Of a stretch of 62,607 bases of DNA, positions 8,061-61,430 are shown piece by piece (position 1 is the stretch's first letter; every line of letters begins with the position of its first letter). A program made the translations under genes and the position numbers. The notes below the pieces were generated by a model. That model ran no database searches, had not been told where the DNA came from, and saw only the letters and a program-made list of their open reading frames with translations. The stretch comes from Ruminococcus sp. (GTDB lineage: Bacteria; Bacillota; Clostridia; Oscillospirales; Ruminococcaceae): positions 1-62,607 of the forward strand of contig JAFXDK010000034.1 of NCBI GenBank assembly GCA_017521805.1. Direction: 5' to 3'.

Positions 8061-10430
8061 TTATTCATTTAATGGAAGTGATGAAATAAGCTTTGCATCG
8101 TATTGCTTGATTGTGATAGCGTCAGCCGCTGTTATACCCTTGTTTCCGTCAACATCGCCGTTTACTGTTCCCTGCTCGGAAAGACCATATTTATCGGGGT
8201 TTCCGATTGACTGGAGAATAGCTGTGGAATCTGCAATTGTAACCTTTCCGTCACAGTTAGCGTCACCGTAAATAATATCAGTATTTCCACCGGGATTTGA
8301 AGGTGTGATATCATCTGTAACGTCTGGAGTTGTTGTAGTTGGCTTTGTAGTTACAGTAGTAGTTGTTGTTACAGGCTTAGGTGCTGTTGTAGTTGTTACA
8401 GCAGGCTTATCGGGCTCTGGTGAAGCGTTTCCGTCAGCAGATGTGCCGTCAGGCTCTTCGCCGTAGTAAAGCTCTCCGTTGATGTATACAGGTACATACT
8501 TTGTTACAATACCCTTTACTGTACCTGCGGCATCGGTTGTACCCTTGGCATTTGCAAGCTCCTTGAATGAGGGGTCATTTGAAGAATCCCAGCCGCTTGC
8601 ATAATCGGGCATTACAAGAGCAAGAAGAATTTCACACTGCTGCATACCCTCAGATACAGGCATAACTGCTCTGCCGTCGGGGAGGTTTACTTCGATGTAG
8701 TAGATATCACCGTCATACTGGACAGGCTTTGAAATTTCAGCAGGTTTAACACCGCTTGAAGCGTACATTGCAGACTGGTCACGGTCACAGCGGATTACAA
8801 GATTTTCGGGATTATGACCTGCTGCTTTTACTTCGCTGAGGTCCATATAGTATCTGAATGAGATGTTGTCCTGAAGTCTTGCAGGCCATGCGGAGTGGTT
8901 TGTAATCTTGAAGCTGATTGTAGCACCTGAGGAATCTCCGCCCTTTGTGAGACATTCAACAAAGAATTCGGGACCATCGCGCTTTTCGGGCTGAGGGAAT
9001 GAGGGGTCTGATTTACCGCCGTATTTGTCAATCATCTTACAGAGAATTGCTGTAAATCCAGCGTTATAGTCGGTAGCAACCTCATTGTTGATGTAGTTGT
9101 TTCTGTCGTCCTCATAGCTGCCGTCCTGATTAGGACCTCCGACAAGTGCGCCGTAGAGGATATGTCTATTCTGTTCGGGCATATAGATATCATTTTTCCA
9201 AGAGCCGTGAGCTGTTCTGTGGTGAGCGTTGTGAGCAGGCTTATCGCCGTATCCTACAACATAGCTCTGACCGTCGGAGTTATCGCCGAGAACGAAGTTA
9301 ATCTGGTCCTCGTAGAACTGAACATAATCTGATGTATCTGTATCTGCAAGAACTGTATCGGAAGCTACAGCAGTCATAAATGCAGCAGCCTGAGCATATC
9401 TTGCACAGCCCCAGCTGTCGATATAAGCCATTTTGCCCTCAACCTTTTTGGAATCATAAGTGAGGTAGTCGATGTGCTTCTTTACATGGTTGATATATGT
9501 ATCTTCCTTTGTGTTGATTGCGTAAAGGAGCATAGCGCCCTGCATTACGTCATCCCAGCACATACACCATGTATATTTCAGAACGTCCTGTCCAAGCTCC
9601 TTGTCAAGATTGGGGATATAGCTTGCAGCCTTGTCAAGATAAGCTTTATCTCCTGTTGCGATATAGAGCCAGTTTGCAGCATAGAAAAGCTCATCGTAGA
9701 AATGACTTGAACGGTAGAAGCCCGAAGCGTTACTGTCGTTGTATGTATCGTTTCCGGGAGAAGTGGAAGCGATTTTGAATATATTTTCAGCGTGCTCAAG
9801 ATAACCTGCAAGCTTGCCGCTGTCTATTCTTCCTTCAAGAGCGCAGTAGCCTGCTGCCAATGCAGCTGCCATTCCGCCGAATACAGCTGAACAGCCTTTA
9901 GATGCCTTGTAAGTCTGACGAGCCTCAGCATATGAAGTGCCTGCGTCCTCCATACCGTACTGGTAAACCTCAACAGGTCCCCACCATGTATGGTCGATAG
10001 TACCGTTGCCTACCTGAAATACAACCTCATCTCCAAGGTCGCAGTCAGCAAAATAATCAAGAACGAATTCAAGGTTGTTGACATAGTTTGTCATTTCACC
10101 GCAGCTTTCAACACCGTCGGGATACTGATAAAGTCCCCATGCAAGAACGGAAGCTGTATAAGCCATAGGCAGATTGAATTTAACGTGGTCTCCGGCATCG
10201 TACCAGCCGCCCTTGATTTCGTCAATCATTGTGGAATCAGCACGCCATTCAACTCTGTTCCATTCGGGAAGCGGACCTGCCTGCTGACACTCGTAGAAAA
10301 ACAGGGATTTCTGCAATGCCTCAGCATAGTTGGGGGTGTCGGCAGCTGTAACTGTGGGAGTTACAGTACTTCCGACGGAGGCAGCCAGCATAACAGCCGA
10401 CATAGCTCCTGAAATAAATTTCTTTAACAT
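8061..10430 (-). CDS. Cellulosomal GH9 endoglucanase (GH9-CBM3c-dockerin)
   Basis: Secreted cellulase of 789 residues. Order: Sec signal peptide (1-30, ending VTAA), GH9 catalytic module (about 33-475), family-3c-like carbohydrate-binding module (about 485-650), a Thr-rich linker with VTTTT repeats (about 675-710) and a C-terminal type I dockerin (about 718-789) with two Ca-binding repeats (GDANCDGKVTIADS and GDVDGNKGITAADA). Catalytic features are visible: DAGDH at 78-82, HHRTAHGSW near 403-411 and the general acid Glu450 in NNEVATDYNAGF. The GH9-CBM3c pair is the processive-endoglucanase layout; the dockerin docks it on a scaffoldin cohesin. Single gene with its own promoter and terminator. 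Confidence 0.96.
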   Translation of the reverse strand: MLKKFISGAMSAVMLAASVGSTVTPTVTAADTPNYAEALQKSLFFYECQQAGPLPEWNRVEWRADSTMIDEIKGGWYDAGDHVKFNLPMAYTASVLAWGLYQYPDGVESCGEMTNYVNNLEFVLDYFADCDLGDEVVFQVGNGTIDHTWWGPVEVYQYGMEDAGTSYAEARQTYKASKGCSAVFGGMAAALAAGYCALEGRIDSGKLAGYLEHAENIFKIASTSPGNDTYNDSNASGFYRSSHFYDELFYAANWLYIATGDKAYLDKAASYIPNLDKELGQDVLKYTWCMCWDDVMQGAMLLYAINTKEDTYINHVKKHIDYLTYDSKKVEGKMAYIDSWGCARYAQAAAFMTAVASDTVLADTDTSDYVQFYEDQINFVLGDNSDGQSYVVGYGDKPAHNAHHRTAHGSWKNDIYMPEQNRHILYGALVGGPNQDGSYEDDRNNYINNEVATDYNAGFTAILCKMIDKYGGKSDPSFPQPEKRDGPEFFVECLTKGGDSSGATISFKITNHSAWPARLQDNISFRYYMDLSEVKAAGHNPENLVIRCDRDQSAMYASSGVKPAEISKPVQYDGDIYYIEVNLPDGRAVMPVSEGMQQCEILLALVMPDYASGWDSSNDPSFKELANAKGTTDAAGTVKGIVTKYVPVYINGELYYGEEPDGTSADGNASPEPDKPAVTTTTAPKPVTTTTTVTTKPTTTTPDVTDDITPSNPGGNTDIIYGDANCDGKVTIADSTAILQSIGNPDKYGLSEQGTVNGDVDGNKGITAADAITIKQYDAKLISSLPLNE

Positions 10431-28231: not shown

Positions 28232-31200
28232 ATGAACAATCTGATTACAATAAGCTGTGAATCGGTAAAACAGATTAATTTTGCAATGCAGCAGAACTAC
28301 ATACCGATTTTCCGCAGCGTAACAATAAAGAATAACAGTTCTGAGGAACTGAAAAATATAAAAATCAAAATCAGATTTGAACCTGATTTTGCCATTGAAT
28401 ACGAATCTGCCCCCGTTGATATCCAAGGGAACGAAGCTGTTGAAATATCGCCTTTGAATATTATTCTCCGTCCCGAATATCTTTTCGGGTTGACAGAAAA
28501 ACTGATAGGTTGTATGATGATTGAAGCTGTATGCGAAAATGAAATCATCGCCAGTATTACGGATAACATTGAGCTTCTCGCCTATGACCAGTGGACAGGA
28601 CTTAATATACTTCCTGAGATGATAAGTGCCTTTGTAACGCCAAATCATCCTAAAATTGCTGAAATTATTTCCAAGGCATCGGAGTATCTGAAAAAATGGT
28701 GCGGAGATCCCTCATTTACAGGTTATCAGAGCCGCAGTTCAAACGTTGTGAAAATGCAGATGTGCGCCGTATATGCCGCATTGCAGACTGAAAATATAGC
28801 TTATGCAATGCCCCCTGCAAGCTATGAATCGGCACAGAGAGTACGTCTGCCAGATGCTGTACTTACAGGAAAAAGTGGCACTTGTCTTGACCTTGCAGTT
28901 CTGTATTGCGCCTGTCTTGAATATATCGGGCTGAATCCACTTCTTGTGCTAATGGACACCCACGCATTTGCAGGCTGTTGGCTTGAAGAAGAAAGCTTCC
29001 CCGATTGTCTGTGTTATGATAATACAGCTCTCACAAAGCGTGCTGCAAAAGGTATTGACACAATTTCAGTTGTGGAATGTACGGATTTTGTTGCTGGAAA
29101 ATCTGTTGATTTTGATAATGCAGAAGCTCACGGTATTTCAAAGCTTGGAGATACTGAAAAATTCGTATGTGCTGTTGATATAAAGCGTACAAGAATAAGC
29201 GGTATACGTCCTATTCCTGCCAGAGTTGCAGATTCGGGAACATTTAAAGCCGTTGACTACGGTACGCGGAAAAAATCCGAAATAACCTCAGCTCCAAATG
29301 AAATCTTACATAACGGGGGAATAATCACCGACAGCGGAAAGCATGAAAAACTCACAAAGCAGAAAATGTGGGAAAGAAATCTTCTTGACCTCAGCCTGAG
29401 AAACAGTCTGCTGAATTTCCGTATGAAATCCACAAGCGTAAGAATTATTACAACGGATTTAAGCCGTCTTGAAGATGAACTTTCGGGAGGGGAGGAATAC
29501 AGGCTTTATCCCGCTCCTGAGGATATGTTCAGCAATGTTGCTGACAGCCGACTTTTTGAGCTTGAAAATAACAGGGAACAGATTGCCGTAATTGCTGACG
29601 AGGAACTGAAAAATCGTCGTTTGCGTACATATCTTACAGCGGCAGAACTTGAAAAGAATATGTCAAAGCTGCGCAGACTTGCTAAAGTAAGCCTTGAAGA
29701 AAATGGAGCGAATACCATATATCTTGCGTTGGGATTCCTTGAATGGTACGAGACAGACAGAAGCGAAAAGCCGCGATATGCGCCGCTTATACTGCTTCCT
29801 GTGAATATTACGCGAAAGATTCAGGATAAGTCATACAGCATAAAGCTCCGTGACGAAGCTGTACAGATAAATATAACCCTCCTTGAAATGCTCCGACAGA
29901 ATTTCGGCATAGATATTCAGGGGTTGGGACAGCTTCCGGAAGATGAAAAGGGAGTAGATATTCCGCAGATTTTCAGTGTTGTACGGCATGCGGTTATGGC
30001 TAATTCCCGTTGGGATGTCAAGGAACTTGTGTTTATAGGGCAATTTTCATTCAGTCGATTTATCATGTGGAATGACATATGCAACCGTTCCGATGACCTT
30101 ATAAAAAACAAGGTTGTGGCAAGTCTTGTATCGGGCAAAAAGGAGTGGAGCGACAGCGATATATCAATAACTCCCAAAGAGCTTGATGAAAACGTCATGC
30201 CCTCGGAGCTTGCAGTGCCTTTATCTGCGGATTCCTCACAGCTTGGGGCGATTTATGCCGCAAATCAGGGGAAAAGCTTTGTGCTTCACGGACCTCCCGG
30301 AACTGGAAAATCCCAGACAATTACGAATATAATTGCAAATGCGCTGTATCACGACAAATCCGTGCTTTTTGTTGCGGAGAAAATGGCGGCTCTTGAAGTT
30401 GTACAGAAACGTCTTGAAAAACTTGGGCTTTCGCCATTTTGTCTTGAACTCCATTCAAATAAATCACGTAAAAGAGATGTGCTGAATCAGCTTGACAATG
30501 TGCTGAATATCGGGAAAAAAGCATCTCCCAATGAATACAGTGCAGAGGCTGAAAGAGTTGCGGCTCTCCGCCGTGAGCTCAATGAATCTGCAAAGGAAAT
30601 TCACAGTAAAAGAAGCTTCGGAATGTCGGTATATGAGGCAATTGTAAAATATGAAAAATATTCTGAATATGGCGGAAAGCTGAGCTTTACAAATGAATTT
30701 CTCAATTCCGTAAATGCGGAAATATATCAGAACTGTATTGAGGAACTTGAAAAGCTTGGGGCATCGGGAAAAGCTTTCGGAGATATTAGCGGAACCCCGT
30801 TGAAATGCTGTAGTCTCACAGAATATACTCCTGTTATGCGTGAGCAGCTTTCGGAAACGCTTTCACAGTTTATAACAGCAATTGAAAAAGTGGAGGGTGA
30901 AAAAACATATTTCAGCGATATTTCGGGAAAGGATAATATAAGCAGTGCTCAGCTGAAAGCCATTTCCGATATATCATCAGCTTCTCTTTCAGAGGGAGAT
31001 ATTATTGCTGATATCATCTGCGGTGAGGGCTGGGACAGAATCAAAGATACAGTAAAATTCCTTTTAAACGACGGACATGAGCAGAAAAAGCTGAAATCTG
31101 AAATTATGTCAGAGTTTGAGCCGACGGTGTTCAGCTATGACAGCGGAAATGCCATTGCTGAGTGGAAAACAGCGCAGAACAGCTGGGTAATTCCAAAGCT

Positions 31201-33391
31201 TATGAAAAGCGGCAAGCTTGTAAAATCACTGTGCGCTCATGCAAAATCAGCTGATACCATTACAAAGGAAAATTTTGCTGATTACTGTGAAAAACTGAAT
31301 AAATGCAAAACGCTTACAGAGACGGTAAATAATATTCCTGCGGCTGTTACTGAAATTTTCAGCAGTCATACAGGTTTGCTTATGGGTGAAAATACCGATT
31401 GGAACTCAGTTGAAAAAGCTGTGGAGATATCTGAAAATCTGAGAGCAATTATCAGCGGAAGCCTCTTTAATTCTGCTGAAAAACAGCGCATTTCACAGCG
31501 CATAACAGCAATGTTCGGCACATCTCAGCGTAAGTCTGAAAACAGAGCTAATGCTGAATCCTTTACGGAAAAATATTCCTTGTGCGAAAAAATTCTCAGT
31601 GAGCTGAAAGATAAATACTGTCTCGTTCCCGATAAGCTTATGGGTGAAAATCCTATTTCCGACACAATTGAACAGGTGCATAGTATCATATCTGCACTTC
31701 CTATGCTAAGGGAATGGACCGGTATTATGGCTATATGCCGCCGCCTTGAAGAATTAGGCACAAGCAATTCAGTAAAAGCTTATATGGAGGGAAGAATCGA
31801 ATCCGATAATCTTGCAAAAGCCTTTGAATGTGATATATGCCGCGGATTTGCAGTTAAAACTATATCTGAAAATCCTGTTCTTGCAGGATTTCAAGGAGCT
31901 GTATTTGAGGAGACAATCAGAAAATTCGGACAGATTCTTGATAATTTCCGCAGACTTACCGTTGAAGAACTTGTTGCAAAGCTTTCTGCAAAAATTCCCG
32001 ATTCTCAATCGGCAGATTCAGAACTTCTGCTGCTGAAAAAAGCCATAAAGAACGGCGGTAGAGGAATGTCAGTTCGCAGACTTTTCGACAACATACCCAC
32101 GCTTCTGCGGAAAATATGCCCCGTTATGCTTATGAGCCCCATATCTGTGGCGCAGTACATAGACCCCTCATATCCCAAGTTTGATTATGTAATATTTGAC
32201 GAGGCTTCACAGCTTCCCACCTGCGAGGCTGTAGGTGCGGTATCACGAGGGGAAAATGTTATTATATCCGGAGATCCGAAACAGCTTCCTCCCACCAGCT
32301 TTTTTTCCGCGTCCCATAGCGACGAGGAAAACATGGAAAACGAAGATCTGGAAAGTCTCCTTGATGACTGCCTTGCTTTGTCCATACCAAGTGAGCATCT
32401 GCTGTGGCATTACCGTTCACGGCATGAAAGCCTTATAGCGTACAGCAATGCGAAATATTACGGAAATAAACTATATACATTCCCGTCCGCAGATAATATG
32501 GTATCAAAAGTTACACGCATAGCTGTTGACGGATATTACGACAGAAGCAAGACGAGAACTAATAAAGCAGAGGCGCAGGCTGTTGTGGCTGAAATCGTTC
32601 GCCGCCTTAGAGATGAGGAACTCCGCAAGGAAAGTATCGGAGTTGTAACATTCAGTATGCCTCAGCAGAATCTCATAGATGATTTGCTTGCAGAGGCATA
32701 CAGAAACGAACCGCAGCTTGAAAAAATTGCGGACGAGCTTTATGAGCCGATAATCATAAAAAATCTTGAAAATGTTCAAGGTGACGAGCGAGACGTTATC
32801 ATGTTTTCTGTTGGGTATGGTCCCGACAAGGACGGAAAGCTTTCAATGAATTTTGGACCTCTTAACAGGGACGGCGGTTGGAGACGACTTAACGTAGCCA
32901 TTACCCGAGCAAGAAAACGTATGCTTGTATTTTCTGTCATTACTTCGGATATGATAAATCTGTCGGTTACTCGCTCCGAGGGTGTCGAGGGACTTAAAGG
33001 CTTCCTCAAATTTGCGGAGCAGGGCGGCGATATCGCCGTAAAGGCTGAAAATTCGAGAACAGCATCGGAGGGATTTGAAAAAATTGTAGCCGACGAGCTG
33101 AAAAAACGCGGATATATCGTTGATTGCTCTGTAGGACGTTCAGATTTCAAGGTTGATATCGCCATAGCGCATCCCACCGACAGCGGAAAATATATTCTTG
33201 GAATCTTCTGCGGTACAAAATCGGGATATGAACATACAACAGCCGAGGACAGATATATTTCACAGAAAAATGTTTTACAGGGACTTGGCTGGGAGACTAT
33301 GAATCTCCATATCCTTGACTGGCTTGACAACAAGGAAAAGGCTCTTGAACGCATAGAAAGCAGGATTTCGGAAATCCTTAATAAAACGTGA
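28232..33391 (+). CDS. Giant DUF4011 / SF1 helicase / Vsr-like nuclease-fold protein (Hhe-like)
   Basis: 1719 residues, start at ATG 28232 with GAGGTG. Order: beta-rich N-terminal domain (1-120); transglutaminase/protease-like domain with Cys218 (KSGTCLDLAVLYC), His244 (DTHAFAGCW) and Asp263; DUF4011 region (about 380-560; LLDLSLRNSLLNF); SF1 helicase with Walker A GPPGTGKS (about 687), a long helical insertion (about 780-1260), Walker B FDEASQLPT, GDPKQLPPT, and motifs V/VI (NVQGDERDVIMFS, LNVAITRARKRM); C-terminal restriction-endonuclease-like domain (1613-1719; GRSDFKVDIAI, VLQGLGWE). The layout resembles the single-gene Hhe defence candidate (DUF4011-helicase-Vsr). The nuclease core seems altered: the family's usual I-E-C-D-G block reads IFCGT. 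murT follows 13 bases downstream. Confidence 0.88.
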   Translation: MNNLITISCESVKQINFAMQQNYIPIFRSVTIKNNSSEELKNIKIKIRFEPDFAIEYESAPVDIQGNEAVEISPLNIILRPEYLFGLTEKLIGCMMIEAVCENEIIASITDNIELLAYDQWTGLNILPEMISAFVTPNHPKIAEIISKASEYLKKWCGDPSFTGYQSRSSNVVKMQMCAVYAALQTENIAYAMPPASYESAQRVRLPDAVLTGKSGTCLDLAVLYCACLEYIGLNPLLVLMDTHAFAGCWLEEESFPDCLCYDNTALTKRAAKGIDTISVVECTDFVAGKSVDFDNAEAHGISKLGDTEKFVCAVDIKRTRISGIRPIPARVADSGTFKAVDYGTRKKSEITSAPNEILHNGGIITDSGKHEKLTKQKMWERNLLDLSLRNSLLNFRMKSTSVRIITTDLSRLEDELSGGEEYRLYPAPEDMFSNVADSRLFELENNREQIAVIADEELKNRRLRTYLTAAELEKNMSKLRRLAKVSLEENGANTIYLALGFLEWYETDRSEKPRYAPLILLPVNITRKIQDKSYSIKLRDEAVQINITLLEMLRQNFGIDIQGLGQLPEDEKGVDIPQIFSVVRHAVMANSRWDVKELVFIGQFSFSRFIMWNDICNRSDDLIKNKVVASLVSGKKEWSDSDISITPKELDENVMPSELAVPLSADSSQLGAIYAANQGKSFVLHGPPGTGKSQTITNIIANALYHDKSVLFVAEKMAALEVVQKRLEKLGLSPFCLELHSNKSRKRDVLNQLDNVLNIGKKASPNEYSAEAERVAALRRELNESAKEIHSKRSFGMSVYEAIVKYEKYSEYGGKLSFTNEFLNSVNAEIYQNCIEELEKLGASGKAFGDISGTPLKCCSLTEYTPVMREQLSETLSQFITAIEKVEGEKTYFSDISGKDNISSAQLKAISDISSASLSEGDIIADIICGEGWDRIKDTVKFLLNDGHEQKKLKSEIMSEFEPTVFSYDSGNAIAEWKTAQNSWVIPKLMKSGKLVKSLCAHAKSADTITKENFADYCEKLNKCKTLTETVNNIPAAVTEIFSSHTGLLMGENTDWNSVEKAVEISENLRAIISGSLFNSAEKQRISQRITAMFGTSQRKSENRANAESFTEKYSLCEKILSELKDKYCLVPDKLMGENPISDTIEQVHSIISALPMLREWTGIMAICRRLEELGTSNSVKAYMEGRIESDNLAKAFECDICRGFAVKTISENPVLAGFQGAVFEETIRKFGQILDNFRRLTVEELVAKLSAKIPDSQSADSELLLLKKAIKNGGRGMSVRRLFDNIPTLLRKICPVMLMSPISVAQYIDPSYPKFDYVIFDEASQLPTCEAVGAVSRGENVIISGDPKQLPPTSFFSASHSDEENMENEDLESLLDDCLALSIPSEHLLWHYRSRHESLIAYSNAKYYGNKLYTFPSADNMVSKVTRIAVDGYYDRSKTRTNKAEAQAVVAEIVRRLRDEELRKESIGVVTFSMPQQNLIDDLLAEAYRNEPQLEKIADELYEPIIIKNLENVQGDERDVIMFSVGYGPDKDGKLSMNFGPLNRDGGWRRLNVAITRARKRMLVFSVITSDMINLSVTRSEGVEGLKGFLKFAEQGGDIAVKAENSRTASEGFEKIVADELKKRGYIVDCSVGRSDFKVDIAIAHPTDSGKYILGIFCGTKSGYEHTTAEDRYISQKNVLQGLGWETMNLHILDWLDNKEKALERIESRISEILNKT

Positions 33392-33404: not shown

Positions 33405-34745
33405 TTGAACAGTATATTAATAATCATAGGAAAAATTATAGTAGCTGTACTGCGGCTTTTCAAACGCAATGCAGGTAATCTTCCCGGAATCGTGCTCTGG
33501 CATCTGACAAAGGGAAAATGCTGTAAGATGTTTAAAGTTGACTGTCCGATTATTGCAGTTACGGGAACAAACGGCAAGACATCTGTAACAAACTGTATTG
33601 CACAGCTTTTTGAGCAGAACGGCAAGAAGATAATCATAAACAAAGAGGGCAACAATCTTGATACAGGCATCTGCTCCCTTCTTCTCCGCCATTGCAATAT
33701 AAGCGGAAAGGTAGACGCCGATTATCTTATATTTGAAACAGATGAAAGTCATGTTCCCGTTGTGTATTCACAGCTGAAACTTGAAACTCTTGTGGTACTG
33801 AATTTCTTCCGCGACCAGCTTGACCGCAACGGCGAAATGGAAACGCTTATCCAGAAGATAAACGGCTTCTGCAAGACCTTTGAGGGAAATCTCGTACTCA
33901 ACGGTGATGACCCAAATACTGCCCGTCTTGGCAGAGCAAACGAGAAGAATAAGAATGTAAAATACTTCCACGCAAAACCCTATGCTTTTGCAACGGAGAG
34001 TATATTTGAGGCATCCGAGGGACGTTTCTGTCCATTCTGCGGTGAGTCTCTGGAATATGAGTATTACCAGTATTCCCACATTGGCAAATTCAGCTGTAAG
34101 AAATGCGGATTCGGCAATTACGAGCCATATATCACAGCAGAGAATATCGACCTTGAAAAATCCGTATTCACAGCCGACGGTCACAAGTATTCACCACAGC
34201 TGAACAGCATATACAATATCTACAACATGACCGCTGTTGCAGCGGCGGCAAAGCTTTATGATATCCCCGAAAATGTAACAGATAACGTAATCTCAAAATA
34301 CACTATAAACAACGGACGTATGGAAACCTTTATGCTTGGTGACAGAAAAGCAACGCTGAATCTTGCAAAAAATCCTGTGGGAGCAAATATGACGCTGCGA
34401 GTTATGAACGAAATGCAGACAGAAAAGGAATTGCTTTTTGTTCTCAATGATAATATTGCTGACGGTCTTGACGTATCGTGGATATGGGATATAAATTTCA
34501 GTGTATTTGACCGTGTTACAAGAGTTGTAACATCCGGCACAAGAGCTCATGATATAGCCGTAAGAATCAAATGTTCAGGATATCCTGCCGAGAATATAAC
34601 AGTTCGTCCTGACCTTGACGAAGCCGTTGCAGAGCTTGCAAAAACTGAGGGCAGAAAATTCGTAATAGCAAATTATACAGCAGTTCAGCCCACACGTTCA
34701 GCATTGAAGCGATACGCTGAGAAGCACGGAGGTAAAAATGAGTAA
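33405..34745 (+). CDS. murT: Lipid II isoglutaminyl synthase subunit MurT
   Basis: 446 residues, partner of GatD. Together they amidate the alpha-carboxyl of D-Glu in lipid II. Mur-ligase ATP loop VTGTNGKTS at 52-60, an inserted Cys4 zinc ribbon (Cys209, Cys212, Cys231, Cys234), Mur-ligase central domain (NGDDPNTARLG) and the C-terminal DUF1727 domain from about 310 (FVLNDNIADGLDVSWIWD). The start is a TTG at 33405, the only start codon at the right distance (6 bases) from AAGGAGA. It overlaps gatD by 8 bases. Confidence 0.94.
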   Translation: MNSILIIIGKIIVAVLRLFKRNAGNLPGIVLWHLTKGKCCKMFKVDCPIIAVTGTNGKTSVTNCIAQLFEQNGKKIIINKEGNNLDTGICSLLLRHCNISGKVDADYLIFETDESHVPVVYSQLKLETLVVLNFFRDQLDRNGEMETLIQKINGFCKTFEGNLVLNGDDPNTARLGRANEKNKNVKYFHAKPYAFATESIFEASEGRFCPFCGESLEYEYYQYSHIGKFSCKKCGFGNYEPYITAENIDLEKSVFTADGHKYSPQLNSIYNIYNMTAVAAAAKLYDIPENVTDNVISKYTINNGRMETFMLGDRKATLNLAKNPVGANMTLRVMNEMQTEKELLFVLNDNIADGLDVSWIWDINFSVFDRVTRVVTSGTRAHDIAVRIKCSGYPAENITVRPDLDEAVAELAKTEGRKFVIANYTAVQPTRSALKRYAEKHGGKNE

Positions 34746-35481
34746 GATAAAAATACTTCATATGTATGCAGATATGCTTGACCTTTACGGCGACAGCGGA
34801 AATATGGAAATAATTGCTTACCGCTGTAAAATGCGCGGAATCGAATGTGAAATTGACAAATATTCCATAGATTCCCCAATGCCTGATTTTTCTGCCTATG
34901 ATTTGATATATATTGGCGGCGGTGCTGACCTTGAACAACAGCACATTTCCGAGGATTTAGTAAAATGCAGAAACGGCATAGAGGCGGCATACAAAAACGG
35001 AACGTTTCTTTTTCTGATATGCGGCGGATATCAGCTTATGGGCAAGCATTACCGTGATGCAGACGGTGTGGATATTCCCGGACTTGCCCTGTTTGATTAC
35101 TACACAATAGCCGAGCCGAACCGCCGAAAGAGATGTATAGGCAACGTTGTAATACGTACTGAATTTACAGGAAAAACTGTGGATATTGTTGGATTTGAAA
35201 ATCATGGCGGACAAACCCATGATGTAAAAACTCCCCTTGGAGAAGTGTTGTACGGACACGGAAACCGCACAAAAAGCAGACACGAGGGATATTTTGAAAA
35301 AAACGTAATAGCTACGTATATGCATGGTCCATGCCTTGCAAAAAATCCGGAAATATCCGATTATATTATCGGATATTGCATAAACAGAAACAGCGATACA
35401 GTTGCACAACTCACCCCCCTTGACGACAAGCTTGAAAATGATTGCCGTCAGGTTATGATTGACAGACTTTTGAATAAATAA
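34738..35481 (+). CDS. gatD: Lipid II isoglutaminyl synthase, glutaminase subunit GatD
   Basis: 247 residues, class I (triad) glutamine amidotransferase of the CobB/CobQ-like type. Nucleophile Cys95 in LICGGYQLMG, the GGG oxyanion region YIGGGADLEQQ, HGGQTHD, and the catalytic His196 in YMHGPCLAKNPE. Supplies ammonia to MurT. The ATG overlaps the end of murT, as in most Gram-positive murT-gatD operons. 22 bases before the GH25 gene. Confidence 0.95.
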   Translation: MSKIKILHMYADMLDLYGDSGNMEIIAYRCKMRGIECEIDKYSIDSPMPDFSAYDLIYIGGGADLEQQHISEDLVKCRNGIEAAYKNGTFLFLICGGYQLMGKHYRDADGVDIPGLALFDYYTIAEPNRRKRCIGNVVIRTEFTGKTVDIVGFENHGGQTHDVKTPLGEVLYGHGNRTKSRHEGYFEKNVIATYMHGPCLAKNPEISDYIIGYCINRNSDTVAQLTPLDDKLENDCRQVMIDRLLNK

Positions 35482-38685: not shown

Positions 38686-40767
38686 ATGACTAATTATGAT
38701 GTAACACAGATAAGAAATATAGCTTTTGCAGGACACAATGGTTCAGGTAAGACATCACTGGCAGAAGCACTGTTATACAAGGCAGGAGCTTCAGACCGTC
38801 TGGGCAAGATAGCAGACGGTACAACTGTATGCGATTACGATCCCGAGGAAATCAAGAGAGCCATATCAATCGGCACATCTCTTGCCTCTTTCAATTATAA
38901 TAACAACAGAATTAATCTTCTTGATACCCCCGGTTTGTTTGACTTTGCCGCTGAAATGGTTGAGGGAGTCCGCGCCGCTGATACTGTAATGATTACAGTT
39001 TCCGCTAAATCAGGTGTAAGGGTAGGAACAAGAAAGGCATATGACGAAGCTGTAAAGCAGGGCAAGTCTAAGATGTTTGTGGTAACAAAAATCGACGACA
39101 AGGATGCAAACTTCTTTAACGTCCTCACAGAGCTTAAAACAGTATTCGGACCTACTGTATGCCCTGTAGTTGTTCCCGTTATCAGCGACGGCAAGATTGT
39201 TTCATACGTAAATCTCATTGAGATGAAAGCTTATAAATACGATAACAAGGGTAACGCTATTGAAACAGATATGCCTACAGCTGAGATTTCAGAGAAGTTT
39301 GAGTACCGTATCGAAGGACTTGTTGCGGCAGTTTCAGAGGCTGTTGCAGAGACTTCCGATGAACTTATGGAGAAGTTCTTCGAGGGTGAGCCTTTCACAC
39401 AGAAGGAGCTTATCGACGGTATTCACGACGGTATGAACAGAGGTATCATTACTCCTGTTGTGTGCACATCTGCAACAGAACTTACAGGTATTGATATGCT
39501 CTTCAAGGAAATCGAGCTTCTTCTCCCGAATCCTACAGAGGTCTATGCTGCTGAGGCATACACTCCCGCAAAGGATGTTGTTGAGATTGCTTGTTCCGAA
39601 AGCGATCCTCTTTCTGCATACGTATTCAAGACAATTGCCGATCCCTTTGTTGGCAAGATGTCATTCATAAAGGTTATTTCAGGTAAGCTAACAGCTAACA
39701 GTGAGGCTGTAAATTCCGCTACAGGAAATACAGAGAAGATAGGCAAGCTTGTAAATCTCTGCGGTAAGAAGCAGTCTGAGACTTCATCTGCTTCTGCCGG
39801 TGATATCGTTGTTGCGGTTAAGATTACAGCAAATACAGGGGATACTCTTTCCGCTGTTTCACGAATTGTTGAATTTCCTGCTATGGAATTCCCAAATACC
39901 TGTTATTCAATGGCTGTAAAGGCTAAGGCACAGGGCGATGAGGCTAAAATCTCCACAAGTATGCAGCGACTTACAGAGGAAGATCCTACTCTCACATATA
40001 TTCAGGACGAAACAACAAAGGAGCAGATTCTCAGCGGACTTGGCGAACAGCATCTTGAAGTTGCAGCAGCAAAGGCAAAGGCTAAATTCGGCGCAGATAT
40101 CAAGCTTTCAGTTCCAAAGATTGCGTATAAGGAGACTATCCGCAAGAAAGTAAAGGTAGAGGGTAAGCATAAGAAGCAGTCAGGCGGTCACGGTCAGTAC
40201 GGTCACGTATGGATTGAATTTGAGCCCTGCGTAAGCGATACACTTGTATTTGAGGAAAAAGTATTTGGCGGTGCAGTACCGAAGAATTACTTCCCCGCAG
40301 TACAGAAAGGGCTTGAGGATTCCGTAAAGAAAGGCGTACTTGCAGGCTGTCCCGTTGTAGGCTTAAAGGCTATATTGGTTGACGGTTCGTATCACCCCGT
40401 TGATTCATCGGAAATGGCATTCAAGACAGCCGCTTCACTTGCATACAAGGAGGGACTCCGTCAGGCTGACCCCGTTATGCTTGAACCTATCGGCGAGCTT
40501 AAAGTAAATGCTCCCGACGAAAATACAGGCGATATTATGGGCGAACTCAACAAGCGCCGCGGCAGAGTTCTCGGCATGGAGCCTGTTTCTCACGGAATTA
40601 CACAGATTGTTGCAGAAGTGCCAATCAGAGAAATGCATGATTTTGCAATGTATCTCCGTCAGGTAACAAGAGGCATGGGCAGCTTCACATTTGAATTTGT
40701 AAGATATGAACAGCTTCCTGCAAATCTTCTTGCAGAGGTAATTTCGGCAGTAAACGTTGAAGAATAA
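38686..40767 (+). CDS. EF-G-like translational GTPase (EF-G2 paralogue type)
   Basis: 693 residues with full EF-G domain order. G1 is GHNGSGKT (16-23) in place of AHIDAGKT, G3 is DTPGLFDF, so the GTPase-activating His of canonical EF-G (DTPGHVDF) is Leu, and G4 is TKIDD instead of NKMD. Domain IV has QSGGHGQYGHVWIEFEP, and the C-terminus ends with RRGRVLGMEPVSHGITQIVA. This marks the second, non-essential EF-G paralogue of clostridia; its role in translocation, recycling or stress is not settled. Start at ATG 38686 with TGGAGG. The reading frame overlaps the downstream dockerin gene by 11 bases. Confidence 0.88.
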   Translation: MTNYDVTQIRNIAFAGHNGSGKTSLAEALLYKAGASDRLGKIADGTTVCDYDPEEIKRAISIGTSLASFNYNNNRINLLDTPGLFDFAAEMVEGVRAADTVMITVSAKSGVRVGTRKAYDEAVKQGKSKMFVVTKIDDKDANFFNVLTELKTVFGPTVCPVVVPVISDGKIVSYVNLIEMKAYKYDNKGNAIETDMPTAEISEKFEYRIEGLVAAVSEAVAETSDELMEKFFEGEPFTQKELIDGIHDGMNRGIITPVVCTSATELTGIDMLFKEIELLLPNPTEVYAAEAYTPAKDVVEIACSESDPLSAYVFKTIADPFVGKMSFIKVISGKLTANSEAVNSATGNTEKIGKLVNLCGKKQSETSSASAGDIVVAVKITANTGDTLSAVSRIVEFPAMEFPNTCYSMAVKAKAQGDEAKISTSMQRLTEEDPTLTYIQDETTKEQILSGLGEQHLEVAAAKAKAKFGADIKLSVPKIAYKETIRKKVKVEGKHKKQSGGHGQYGHVWIEFEPCVSDTLVFEEKVFGGAVPKNYFPAVQKGLEDSVKKGVLAGCPVVGLKAILVDGSYHPVDSSEMAFKTAASLAYKEGLRQADPVMLEPIGELKVNAPDENTGDIMGELNKRRGRVLGMEPVSHGITQIVAEVPIREMHDFAMYLRQVTRGMGSFTFEFVRYEQLPANLLAEVISAVNVEE

Positions 40768-42022
40768 AGTGATACTAGGACAAACAGCGGCACTCATTAC
40801 CGCTGTTTGTCTTTTTCCGATGAATGCGTCAGCCGCCTTTAGAGGCGATGTAAACGGCGACGGAACATTTTCCGCAGCCGATCTTGTATCATTTTCACGG
40901 TATATTCTGGGCTCGGGAGAAATGCCGAAATCTCTCAGTTCAGGGGATATGTACCCCGATAATGTACTTGATATCTATGATGTTATTATAATGCGAAAGG
41001 AGCTTGTACAAGCTCCTGAAACAAATATAGTCCGTGTAACAAATACGGAGGAACTGAAAACAGCTCTTGCCAATGCCAAGCCGGGAGACGAAATAGTTCT
41101 TGCGGAGGGCGAGTATATCTACAGCGGTTCAACTCCACAGGGACGTACGTTTACAGGAGAGGCAGACGGAACAGAAACAGCTCCGATAATACTTCGTTCA
41201 GAAAATCCCGATAATCCGTCAATTATATCGGGTACAACCCTTGAACATCACTATGCCCTTACTATTTTAGGCGATTGGTGGGAGCTCCGTGATTTAAAAA
41301 TCACCAATGCTTCAAAGGGTATAATTGTTGACAACAGCAATTATACAAAGATAATCAACTGCGAGGTGTACAATATAGGTACGGAGGGTATACATCTCCG
41401 CGACAACAGTTCATATTGTCTTGTTGAAAGCTGTAATATTCATGATACAGGAGTAATTACACCAAAGTATGGCGAGGGTGTGTATGTGGGTAGTTCCAAA
41501 TCTACTACTGGCTATGGCTTCAAATGCGATTACAACACAATCCGCAACTGTCAGATTGGACCGAATGTAGCGGCGGAGCATGTTGACGTAAAGGAATACA
41601 CAACGGGAACGCTTATTGAGTACTGCACATTTGACGGCAAGGGTATGAAAGGCGAAAACTACGCCGACAGTTTTGTTGACCTCAAAGGTAACGACTGTAT
41701 ACTGCGGTATTGTACAGGCTACAGAAACGGCGAGAACAATATAAACCGTGCATTTGAAATGAACAAGCTTGACGAGGGCTGGGGACAGAATGCGTATATC
41801 TACAGCAATAAGGTGTATATGGATACTGCGGTTAATTCTCAGGGCAAGGAAATGGTATTCCTTAATTCGTGGAATTGCACGGAAACCGTATGGGATAACT
41901 GGATGGCATATGAGGACGGAGAGCTTTTCTATTGCGACGACGAAAAGGATAAGTGGACATACTATAACTGTAATGGTCTGACTTACGGAGATTCATCTAT
42001 GGAGGAGGATTTGCCAAGATGA
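40757..42022 (+). CDS. Secreted dockerin protein with right-handed beta-helix
   Basis: 421 residues. Sec signal peptide (MKNKVILGQTAALI... ending NASA), a type I dockerin directly after it (about 28-83; GDVNGDGTFSAADLVSFSRY and a looser second repeat DNVLDIYDVIIMRK), then a parallel beta-helix (about 92-400) of the pectate-lyase fold (TEELKTALANAKPGDEIVLA; DLKGNDCILRYCTGYRNGEN). It is probably a cellulosomal polysaccharide lyase such as a pectate lyase; catalytic residues cannot be assigned with confidence. The dockerin is N-terminal, less usual. I start it at a TTG because this gives the basic n-region; a GTG four codons later is possible. It overlaps the EF-G-like gene and is followed by a YunG-like gene. 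Confidence 0.82.
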   Translation: MKNKVILGQTAALITAVCLFPMNASAAFRGDVNGDGTFSAADLVSFSRYILGSGEMPKSLSSGDMYPDNVLDIYDVIIMRKELVQAPETNIVRVTNTEELKTALANAKPGDEIVLAEGEYIYSGSTPQGRTFTGEADGTETAPIILRSENPDNPSIISGTTLEHHYALTILGDWWELRDLKITNASKGIIVDNSNYTKIINCEVYNIGTEGIHLRDNSSYCLVESCNIHDTGVITPKYGEGVYVGSSKSTTGYGFKCDYNTIRNCQIGPNVAAEHVDVKEYTTGTLIEYCTFDGKGMKGENYADSFVDLKGNDCILRYCTGYRNGENNINRAFEMNKLDEGWGQNAYIYSNKVYMDTAVNSQGKEMVFLNSWNCTETVWDNWMAYEDGELFYCDDEKDKWTYYNCNGLTYGDSSMEEDLPR

Positions 42023-58796: not shown

Positions 58797-61430
58797 ATGA
58801 TAACGAAATTATTTATAGCAAAAACAGGAAATATTTCAACAGAATGGCTTCCTTTGTATATGCATCTGAAAGATACAGCAGGGATAATGAAGAAGCTTAC
58901 AGAGGAATTTCTGTCTGAATCTTTTTGTAAATCCTGTGATTTATGCAGGGAGGAGTTTGAAAAAGTTACTACATTCCTTGCGTATGCTCATGATATTGGC
59001 AAAGCTACAATTGGATTTCAATATAAGATAGGTCAGCATCTTCCTGACAGAGTAAAAGTTCTGGAGCATGAAAAACTATTAATACCGTCTTATATGAGCA
59101 GTGACAGCGTGCAAAAGACTCCTCATGCACTTGCAGGTGAAGCGATTTTGCGATATTTTAATTGTCCTGAGGGAATTGCCGCAGTAGTTGGAGCACATCA
59201 CGGAATACCTGCTGAATGTGGAACATTAAGAGATAATGAACTTGACGATAAACCACAGGAAATAGTTGGCTATGAAAACTATTACGGAGATAATAATAAG
59301 GAATTTCTTGAAGAAATATGGTTGTCATTCATTCAGGACGCACTTGATTATTCCGGATATGAAAGCTTAAGGGAACTTCCGCAGCTGAATTCAGCCGCAC
59401 AGATGATTTTAAGCGGACTTATTATAGCTGCTGACTGGATTGCAAGTAATATTGAATATTTTCCGCTTATTGATATTGAAGATGAGGGAGACGGTATTTG
59501 CTATAATAAACGTATTGAAAATGCTTGGGAAAAGATTGACTTCCCTGAAATGTGGAAGTCAATAAGAAAAGAATATTCAAATGAAGATTTTAATGATGTA
59601 TTCAGCTTTGAACCGAGAAATACACAAAGGGAACTTCTTGATATTGTTGAGAAATCTGAAAATGCAGGATTGTATATACTTGAAGCTCCAATGGGATGCG
59701 GCAAAACCGAAGCGTCATTAGCGTCAGCAGAGCTTATGGCAGCGAAATTCGGGAAAAATGGAATGTTTTTTGGTATGCCAACACAAGCAACAGCAAATGG
59801 TATATTTCCAAGAATAATGAATTGGGCAGAAAAACAATCACAGGAATATTTCCACTCCATTCAGCTGAAGCACGGTAGTTCAGCACTTAATAAAGCCTTT
59901 ATGGAGATACAGAAAGGTATTCCAGATAAAGAAAATGACAGCGGAATAATTATTCACAAGTGGTTTTGCGATAACAAAAAGGCATGTCTTGCAGATTTTG
60001 TTGTTGCAACTGTTGACCAGATGCTTATGATGGCGTTAAAACGTCGTCATGTTATGCTGCTGCATCTTGGTCTATCTGAAAAAGTAGTTATAATAGATGA
60101 GGTGCACGCTTATGATGCTTATATGAATCAGTATCTCGAAAGGGCATTACAATGGCTTGGTACATATCACACACCTGTAATACTTCTTTCGGCAACGCTG
60201 CCTGCTAATCGTCGAATGTCGCTTATTCGTGCGTATCTTGGTATAAAAAAATCTGATATAAAATTTGAAGAAAACAAAGCATATCCGCTTCTGACATGGA
60301 CAGATGGAGTAAACATTTATCAGAAATCCTTATCGTATATCGGAACTCATAAAAGTGTAAAAATAAATCAGTGTCATAATGATGAAATAATCGATATAGT
60401 TAAAACTGTTATTGATTCTGGCGGCTGTGTTGGTATAATACTCAATACCGTAAACAGAGCTCAGACAACAGCTGAAATGGTAAGAAATGAAATAACTGAT
60501 AATGTGTTGCTTTATCATGCTCAATATATAATGACTGACAGAGCTGAAAAAGAGAGTGAACTCCTTGAAAGAATAGGAAAAAGCAGTACCACGGAAACAA
60601 GAAATGGATTTGTCGTTGTTGGTACACAGGTGTTGGAACAATCTCTTGATATTGATTTTGATTTGCTTATTACTGATGTATGTCCAATGGATCTGCTGTT
60701 ACAACGATTAGGCAGACTGCATCGTCATGACCGTGATTATCGTCCTATTGAAGCAAAAGAACCTGTTTGCTACGTTATTACTGATGAATATGAGGATGAA
60801 AAAAGTGGTTCAAGAACGATATATGGTGGCTGGCTGCTGAAAGAAACTCTCGAATTTCTTCCCGGTACTATAACGCTTCCCGATGATATTTCTCCTCTTG
60901 TACAGAAAGTCTATAATGCTGCTGATGACAGCGAGGAGTACAGAAATTACATTGGGGACATAAAAATTCTGCAAAGCAGGGCATGTTCATTTTTAATTGA
61001 TAGTTCTGATGATTCAATTGATGATACGATTCATAATCTTCTTGATAGAACTTTTTATGATAATAATGCAGAAGCTTCTGTTCGTGACGGTGTATCATCA
61101 ATTGAAGTGCTTGCAATGCAGAAGAAAAATGATGATACAATATGTTTTATGGACGGTACGCCTTTATCTGTACAGCTTACAGATGAAGAATGTCAGCGTA
61201 TAGCAGAACAGAAATTAAGACTTCCAAGTAGATTTTCAAATCGCCGATTTATTGATGACTATATTAAGGAAATAGAAAATAAATGTAAAAAGTATGTTGA
61301 AGCTTGGCAGAAATTTTACTTACTTAATGGGCAGCTTGTGCTTTTCTTCGATGAAAGTTATGAAGCAGAACTTGGAGGATATAAATTAAAATACAGCTAT
61401 GAAAATGGCTTGATATGTGAAAAGGAGTGA
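58797..61430 (+). CDS. cas3: CRISPR-associated helicase/nuclease Cas3 (type I-E)
   Basis: 877 residues. N-terminal HD nuclease with His65-Asp66 in AYAHDIGKATIGFQ and later GAHHG; SF2 helicase with Walker A PMGCGKTEAS (about 298), motif Ia GMPTQATANGIFPR, DEVH box IIDEVHAYDAYMN, motif III LLSATLP, and motif VI QRLGRLHRHDRD. It degrades the displaced target strand after Cascade recruitment. Unlike many I-E loci, cas3 is fused to nothing. Overlaps or abuts casA (TGATG). Confidence 0.95.
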   Translation: MITKLFIAKTGNISTEWLPLYMHLKDTAGIMKKLTEEFLSESFCKSCDLCREEFEKVTTFLAYAHDIGKATIGFQYKIGQHLPDRVKVLEHEKLLIPSYMSSDSVQKTPHALAGEAILRYFNCPEGIAAVVGAHHGIPAECGTLRDNELDDKPQEIVGYENYYGDNNKEFLEEIWLSFIQDALDYSGYESLRELPQLNSAAQMILSGLIIAADWIASNIEYFPLIDIEDEGDGICYNKRIENAWEKIDFPEMWKSIRKEYSNEDFNDVFSFEPRNTQRELLDIVEKSENAGLYILEAPMGCGKTEASLASAELMAAKFGKNGMFFGMPTQATANGIFPRIMNWAEKQSQEYFHSIQLKHGSSALNKAFMEIQKGIPDKENDSGIIIHKWFCDNKKACLADFVVATVDQMLMMALKRRHVMLLHLGLSEKVVIIDEVHAYDAYMNQYLERALQWLGTYHTPVILLSATLPANRRMSLIRAYLGIKKSDIKFEENKAYPLLTWTDGVNIYQKSLSYIGTHKSVKINQCHNDEIIDIVKTVIDSGGCVGIILNTVNRAQTTAEMVRNEITDNVLLYHAQYIMTDRAEKESELLERIGKSSTTETRNGFVVVGTQVLEQSLDIDFDLLITDVCPMDLLLQRLGRLHRHDRDYRPIEAKEPVCYVITDEYEDEKSGSRTIYGGWLLKETLEFLPGTITLPDDISPLVQKVYNAADDSEEYRNYIGDIKILQSRACSFLIDSSDDSIDDTIHNLLDRTFYDNNAEASVRDGVSSIEVLAMQKKNDDTICFMDGTPLSVQLTDEECQRIAEQKLRLPSRFSNRRFIDDYIKEIENKCKKYVEAWQKFYLLNGQLVLFFDESYEAELGGYKLKYSYENGLICEKE

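Follow-up and report, generated by a model that had tools for sequence, protein, structure and literature searches.

The gene analyzed here lies in a 62,607-nucleotide stretch of Ruminococcus sp. DNA (GenBank assembly GCA_017521805.1, contig JAFXDK010000034.1, positions 1 to 62,607 of the forward strand), called the window below. The open reading frame (ORF) at positions 28232-33391 on the plus strand encodes 1719 residues followed by a stop codon. By its profile match, the translated protein is a member of ProA, an already named family. The Cys-His-Asp site in its N-terminal domain is kept in nearly all full-length relatives, and the catalytic glutamate of its C-terminal restriction endonuclease (REase)-like domain has been lost from the whole ProA clade of Bacillota and Bacteroidota. 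This anatomical finding is real and well supported. An earlier note, made from the letters of the window, had described the frame, Cys218, His244, Asp263 and the block IFCGT, and all of these were confirmed.

The NCBIfam model NF058533, named 'anti-phage protein ProA', matched residues 16-1718 with 1928.7 bits against a cut-off of 1500 (1932.4 bits in the genome search). The match covers profile positions 1-1709 of 1903, and the C-terminal tail of the profile is absent. Plasmid proteins of Raoultella (2222.5 bits), P. aeruginosa (2372), Mesorhizobium (2183.5) and Acinetobacter (1782.5) passed the same cut-off. In contrast, the Hhe model NF042953 gave 757.4 bits, which is below its cut-off of 2000. 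The one annotated Hhe protein that was scored (L239) reached 2730.9 bits with NF042953, but only 1131.4 of the 1500 bits with NF058533. Thus, the window protein is a ProA and Hhe is a cousin, and the suggestion of the note that this is a variant of Hhe was not upheld. In PADLOC, PDC-S37 (1103 bits) ranked above Hhe (533 bits). Besides DUF4011 and the MTES_1575 REase domain, Pfam assigned AAA_11/AAA_12. The order of transglutaminase-like domain, helicase and REase-like domain is, judged from the sequences compared, the normal architecture of ProA, and the dead nuclease is common to the Bacillota/Bacteroidota clade; neither is peculiar to the window protein, and the note's reading of a variant architecture was not supported. 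The nearest named relative is that of Ruminococcus sp. L059 (76% identity).

For the comparison of sites, 98 full-length proteins including the window protein were aligned (single ORFs reaching from query residue 20 or earlier to 1700 or later, more than 550 bits); fragments and frameshifted genes such as L119 and L131 were excluded. The ProA-clade set (58 rows) was obtained by thinning the 98 rows at 80% identity, moving L007 to the sister set and adding L137. The sister set has 14 rows for insert length, majority fractions and the nine-position score, and 12 rows for the Glu and acidic columns, where L139 and L249 were left out. Since these two have lost the Glu, the 12/12 of the sister set for this residue is by choice. 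The third set consists of 16 rows without the triad (L153, L154 and the partial L250 excluded).

The C-terminal domain shows the alpha-beta-beta-beta-alpha-beta order of elements in the model, which is the order of PD-(D/E)XK enzymes. The model of residues 1295-1719 was poor over large parts (mean predicted local distance difference test score, 65.1). Therefore, only the order of elements was used for the nuclease part. At position 1659, where the family nuclease motif has its Glu, this residue was found in only 1 of the 98 proteins (L007), and the others have N, L, M, S, I, F or Q; the window protein has F1659. The Glu was lost in 58/58 ProA-clade rows, whereas no loss was seen in the 12 sister rows or in the 16 triad-less rows. 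Seven of eight further near-invariant nuclease positions are eroded in the clade. Of its 58 rows, E1616 is kept in 24, D1661 in 36, a basic residue at 1672 in 28, D1675 in 1, a basic residue at 1676 in none, at 1678 in 1 and at 1691 in 30, and R1674 in 53. In the comparison sets, the same eight positions are kept in at least 11/12 and at least 14/16 rows, except for 1676 (12/16). For E1616, D1675, basic 1676 and basic 1678, the counts are 12, 12, 12 and 11 of 12, and 14, 16, 12 and 16 of 16, respectively. The mean of a nine-position nuclease-site score was 2.98 in the 58 ProA-clade rows, against 8.36 in the 14 sister rows and 8.63 in the 16 triad-less rows. In the window protein, residue 1661 is Gly, and an active nuclease is indicated neither by the catalytic Glu nor by this neighboring site. 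The altered nuclease core pointed out in the earlier note was thus borne out.

A migrated Glu was also sought by comparing the acidic columns of residues 1600-1719, and this candidate was rejected, as no gain near the site is as firm as the loss of the Glu. The only firm acidic gain is at 1699 (51/58 vs 0/12 and 1/16), past the last strand of the model. Partial gains were seen at 1652 (35/58) and 1622 (31/58), and at 1638 as described below. Columns 1699-1703 form a conserved, clade-specific motif (WLDNKEK) with a basic residue at 1703 in 83% of the rows, compared with 17% and 19%, and this motif is perhaps a new contact surface. The note had named intact acidic residues elsewhere as the result that would speak against it; they were not found as firmly as the Glu was lost, and the partial gain at 1638 (38/58) is what is left of this objection. 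The ratio of nonsynonymous to synonymous substitution (dN/dS) of the REase-like domain is about 0.14-0.21, compared with 0.03-0.04 for the helicase, with synonymous sites near saturation; the domain is under purifying selection, but a looser one. From these alignments, we take the C-terminal domain to be a pseudonuclease, with position 1638 as a residual doubt.

In the window protein, L059 and L106, 7 or 8 residues follow position 1712, and the L119 fragment stops no more than about five residues from 1717. In contrast, 53 of the 58 ProA-clade rows extend at least 195 residues further, and the window protein is without this tail of about 220 residues. DUF3320 was detected in the tail of L115 (31.2 bits, cut-off 25), the sole relative scanned for it. 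The tail is also absent in L007, L058 and the Acinetobacter proteins L139 and L249, at several separate places on the tree. Thus, the tail is dispensable.

Residues 120-330 are predicted to take a transglutaminase/peptide:N-glycanase (PNGase)-like fold. A structure search with the model of about residues 116-330 gave matches to TG2, yeast PNGase and 3kd4. In the model, the Cys stands at a helix start and the His and Asp are on or near the following strands, as in the transglutaminase-like core; C218 lies in KSGTCLDLA, H244 in MDTHAFAG and D263 in CYDNT. This order of Cys, His and Asp is that of yeast PNGase and other transglutaminase-fold enzymes. Pfam Transglut_core (PF01841) was found in 39 of 45 family members, with a best E of 1.6e-5. 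The claim covers the predicted fold, and not membership of Transglut_core or transglutaminase activity. The transglutaminase-like N-terminus described in the earlier note was recovered in this way, and the other refutation that it named, a structure without such a fold, was not found. The N-terminal profile matched no sequence of a transglutaminase-fold protein in the PDB up to E 10. Its only matches there were cytidine deaminases (E at least 0.49), which were dismissed as chance. The triad is complete in 92/98 full-length proteins and in 14/14 proteins of the sister set. With Cys in 93, His in 93 and Asp in 97 of the 98 rows against the nuclease Glu in 1, the pattern goes beyond chance. In the other six, L049, L054, L055, L057, L058 and L081, the three residues read TTD, VHN, ARD, LRD, CKD and ARD, respectively.

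To place these changes in order, two trees were used, and both carry long-branch warnings. The first (95 rows) is a quick tree from helicase and DUF4011 columns only, without L145, L153, L154, L241, L247 and L250. The second (39 rows) is a careful mixture-model tree of chosen rows without distant helicases, L168 among those excluded. In both, one branch separates the proteins with the Cys-His-Asp domain from those without it (support 100/99 in the 39-row tree), and the nuclease state changed twice among the bearers of the domain, in the Bacillota/Bacteroidota clade and in Acinetobacter. Both changes are read as losses. The 95-row tree has one further nuclease change, at L168 in the distant helicases, and four changes of the triad within the bearers of the domain.

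Of 13 Proteobacterial triad-bearers read (L138-L144, L147, L148, L242, L246, L248 and L249), 11 have both sites; the exceptions are L139 and L249 of Acinetobacter, which keep the triad and have lost the Glu. L007, from Bacillota like the window, also keeps both sites. Among same-phylum DUF4011 helicases without an aligned triad (L149-L152 and L155-L161), the nuclease Asp and Glu are kept in 11/11. Ten of these have 35 or fewer residues ahead of DUF4011, and L161 has 286 of unassigned kind. Asp and Glu are likewise kept in the annotated Hhe proteins L239 and L240, four other plasmid proteins (L243-L245 and the partial L250), the partial L153 and 6 of 7 more distant helicases (L162-L168). L154 is without the nuclease in the frame used, and for L145, L247 and the cyanobacterial L241 no full frame containing the N-terminal domain was obtained in one piece. 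The majority-residue fractions of the transglutaminase-like and nuclease domains are 0.66 and 0.56 in the ProA clade, but 0.60 and 0.67 in the sister set. Thus, the conservation of the two domains reverses along with the loss of the nuclease. The inference in the earlier note that the nuclease went and the Cys-His site stayed is supported by these relatives and by both trees. In L140, L246 and L248 (Mesorhizobium, Paraburkholderia and Sinorhizobium), the ProA relative adjoins an annotated 'DNA repair exonuclease', and in L140 and L246 an annotated DNA-binding protein or AAA ATPase is also nearby; these are possibly a multi-gene version.

The central part of the protein is a UPF1-like superfamily 1 (SF1) helicase, as seen from Walker A, DEASQ (1323-1327), GDPKQL (1347-1352), the later motifs and the fold of the second half. 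The stretch between Walker A and motif II measures 636 residues in the window protein, with medians of 629.5 in the 58 ProA-clade rows and 634 in the 14 sister proteins. The long insert of the earlier note is therefore real, but of a length usual in the family. Constraint on the protein is strongest in the helicase. The features are listed in Table 1.

Table 1. Features of the ProA gene and the two genes behind it (positions in the window)
Feature	Positions	Strand	Basis
ProA-family protein, 1719 residues	28232..33391	+	NF058533 1928.7 bits, cut-off 1500; profile positions 1-1709/1903
Ig-like beta-sandwich, N-terminal, residues 2-118	28235..28585	+	
Transglutaminase/PNGase-like domain (predicted), residues 120-330	28589..29221	+	Family Transglut_core matches and fold matches
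Cys218, opens predicted helix 218-231	28883..28885	+	C in 93/98; DSSP of model
His244, start of predicted strand 244-250	28961..28963	+	H in 93/98; DSSP of model
Asp263, just past predicted two-residue strand 260-261	29018..29020	+	D in 97/98; DSSP of model
DUF4011, residues 383-554	29378..29893	+	Pfam 162 bits
Walker A GPPGTGKS, residues 687-694	30290..30313	+	Motif reading
Poorly conserved helicase insert, about residues 800-1280	30629..32071	+	Mean majority-residue fraction 0.41 vs 0.79-0.80 in helicase core
Helicase core from motif II on, UPF1/Sen1/Aquarius-like, about residues 1290-1575	32099..32956	+	Motifs and model
MTES_1575 REase-like domain, read as pseudonuclease, residues 1615-1712	33074..33367	+	Pfam 67.6 bits, cut-off 38.2
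IFCGT (1658-1662) replacing I/V-E-C-D-G	33203..33217	+	Motif reading, alignment
murT, 13 bp past the ProA stop	33405..34745	+	MurT_C 114 bits; NCBIfam MurT models below cut-off
gatD, overlaps the murT end	34738..35481	+	GATase_3 125 bits; NCBIfam GatD models below cut-off

The loss of the nuclease site together with retention of a protease-like site suggests an attack on proteins and not on DNA. Our proposal, in which our confidence falls just short of even, is a single-protein anti-phage system in which a sensor helicase drives a Cys-His-Asp effector and a pseudonuclease is retained. The helicase and DUF4011 would detect, or travel along, the nucleic acid of the invader, and the pseudonuclease domain would be retained as a non-catalytic, perhaps DNA-binding, element. 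An ATP-driven rearrangement would then expose an amide bond of a phage or host protein to the Cys-His-Asp site for cleavage, deamidation or cross-linking, and this attack would halt the infection. In most Proteobacterial relatives, the Cys-His-Asp enzyme probably acts alongside an active nuclease, and in the Bacillota/Bacteroidota clade it would act alone. The parts, their conservation and the order of events come from computation; we infer from them the sensing, the activation, the protein substrate, the effector role of the Cys-His domain and the protection against phage. More broadly, ProA may be a class of helicase-driven defence with a protein-attacking effector, in which a nuclease-bearing DUF4011 helicase gained the Cys-His-Asp enzyme once, and the nuclease then became dispensable and died at least twice; we offer this tentatively, as possible but somewhat doubtful. 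In the part of PMC7159879 consulted, transglutaminase-like thiol peptidases are rarely reported as effectors of other NTP-dependent conflict systems.

Of 78 loci of relatives, 45 have murT 3' of the gene and on its strand, and in 39 of the 45 it starts 55 or fewer positions past the stop; the other 33 loci include contig ends and loci with other neighbors, pooled. The upstream flank varies, and thyX is upstream only in L059 and L106 (many loci have little flank). Within the genus, ProA sequence was found in the 1.5 kb upstream of murT at 21 of 30 murT loci. The other nine are without it, although G705, one of the nine, shows weak ProA-like pieces there. The two genes, proA and murT, tend to be kept as neighbors, an argument for co-expression. 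The ProA cut-off was passed in 8 of 398 sampled genomes of the phylum and in 26 of 297 of the family. In the genus, the match is strong in 35 of 60 genomes (counting that of the window) and weak or partial in a further 4. Plasmid records with relatives that cover at least 80% of the length number 44. The Bacteroides 'plasmid 29' record (L137) has rpsA and glutamine synthetase beside the gene, so that it may be part of a chromosome. The unverified 'Bacteriophage sp.' contig MT836269, which may be bacterial DNA, encodes a protein (L146) in which the same motifs are found.

At the gene itself, no defence island was found among the 19 other window ORFs scanned (9 flanking and 10 more). The scan matched a PcrA/UvrD-type helicase, which is housekeeping and was rejected as a defence gene, Cas3, elongation factor G (to LeoA, E 1.8e-6) and, weakly, murT (twice, E 0.005 and 0.049). 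The murT locus was also considered as a swap site for defence systems, and this was rejected, since 10 ORFs at 5 of 10 ProA-less loci gave 0 PADLOC matches. A type I Cas3 (best PADLOC model, Cas3e) is encoded at 58797-61430, near the right end of the window. Two further genes of the window are of cellulosome type and encode a CBM3-bearing GH9 cellulase and a beta-helix protein with dockerin (8061-10430, 40757-42022).

Several observations weigh against the proposed effector system. Transglut_core on the window protein stays below its cut-off of 23, with 14.4 bits for the whole protein (E 0.048) and 17 bits as a fragment (E 0.0073). Because this match is too weak alone, the fold claim needs the family matches and the model. 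A scan of nine Proteobacterial N-termini gave weak Transglut_core matches in two and weak DUF553 matches in another two, all below cut-off, and neither in the remaining five. Therefore, the transglutaminase-like domain of these proteins rests on the alignment with the ProA clade. The triad is broken in the six proteins named above and the nuclease Glu is lost there too; since both are gone, these proteins work, if they work, with neither site. In the 'dead' nuclease, D1642 (97/98), D1673 (55/58) and R1674 are still conserved, and an acidic residue was partially gained at 1638, four residues before D1642 (38/58 vs 0/12 and 1/16; Asp in the window protein). Among the bearers of the domain, the nuclease was lost only twice, a number too small to test for association; the comparison of domain presence with nuclease loss has one independent pair and no power. 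The stable position before murT is not what one would expect of a mobile defence island. The anti-phage label rests on the name of the NCBI model. Among the papers listed from open-licence PMC (mostly titles and abstracts), none was found on ProA as an anti-phage protein or on DUF4011 with a transglutaminase-like domain, and none on a clade-wide loss of the nuclease next to a conserved Cys-His-Asp enzyme; the absence of these from print is thus weakly supported. The 'ProA' in the part of PMC9122589 consulted is a strain genotype and not the anti-phage protein.

Three other explanations have to be compared with the effector proposal. The Cys-His-Asp domain may regulate or process ProA itself or bind a partner, while the helicase displaces or stalls phage replication complexes with ATP. 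The six proteins without triad and Glu retain a full-length frame and the helicase has the lowest dN/dS, as this explanation would have it; however, a triad complete in 92/98 and 14/14 proteins goes beyond the needs of a mere scaffold, and we consider it rather unlikely. An active nuclease with an unusual site, in which D1642 pairs with D1673, D1661 or 1638 and cuts phage DNA, would fit the three conserved or gained acids and an acidic residue at 1661 in 39/58 rows. Against it stand the loss of the Glu in every ProA-clade row, the near disappearance of D1675 and of the basic residues at 1676 and 1678, with E1616 in 24 rows, the Gly at 1661 in the window protein and the position of the firmest acidic gain beyond the last model strand. 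A surviving nuclease is thus very improbable. The Ruminococcus gene may also be a resident housekeeping gene instead of a defence gene, with a role in nucleic-acid repair or in something linked to MurT-GatD and its amidation of lipid II. The closeness to murT and the strong matches in over half of the genus genomes are in its favor; in the part of PMC10250203 consulted, some DUF4011 gene, not necessarily a ProA, is core in all P. aeruginosa isolates of one study. However, relatives are carried on plasmids, nine genus murT loci are without ProA in the flank, and the presence in 8 of 398 phylum genomes means that the gene is dispensable. A housekeeping role is therefore improbable.

The natural reading of a DUF4011 helicase that ends in an REase-like domain is that of a DNA cutter. 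In the large natural clade described here, the cutter has been lost while an enzyme with a predicted protein-acting fold has stayed. If the effector proposal is true, nucleic-acid sensing is wired to a protein-targeting Cys-His-Asp effector within one chain, and nature has provided a separation-of-function set in the Bacillota/Bacteroidota clade. The annotation 'helicase-nuclease' may be wrong for the whole clade. The clade-wide nuclease loss beside the conserved Cys-His-Asp enzyme makes the effector question directly testable.

Compared with known systems, the window protein has the same domain order as the four Proteobacterial ProA members scored (1782-2372 bits), but its nuclease site is lost, whereas it is kept in 11/13 Proteobacterial members. 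It shares DUF4011, the SF1 helicase and the REase-like domain with Hhe (NF042953; PADLOC Hhe). In the alignment, L239 and L240 differ from the window protein in having the nuclease Asp and Glu and no transglutaminase-like domain. The match to PDC-S37, a candidate defence gene of PADLOC, spans residues 378-1716 and starts after the Cys-His-Asp domain. The predicted fold of about residues 116-330 resembles yeast PNGase and the transglutaminase-fold enzymes. In its working, the proposed system would be similar to Hachiman HamAB, in which, as far as the part of the source consulted describes it, a sensor helicase unleashes an effector. The analogy is one of function: HamAB consists of two proteins with a nuclease effector, whereas ProA would unite sensor and effector in a single chain.
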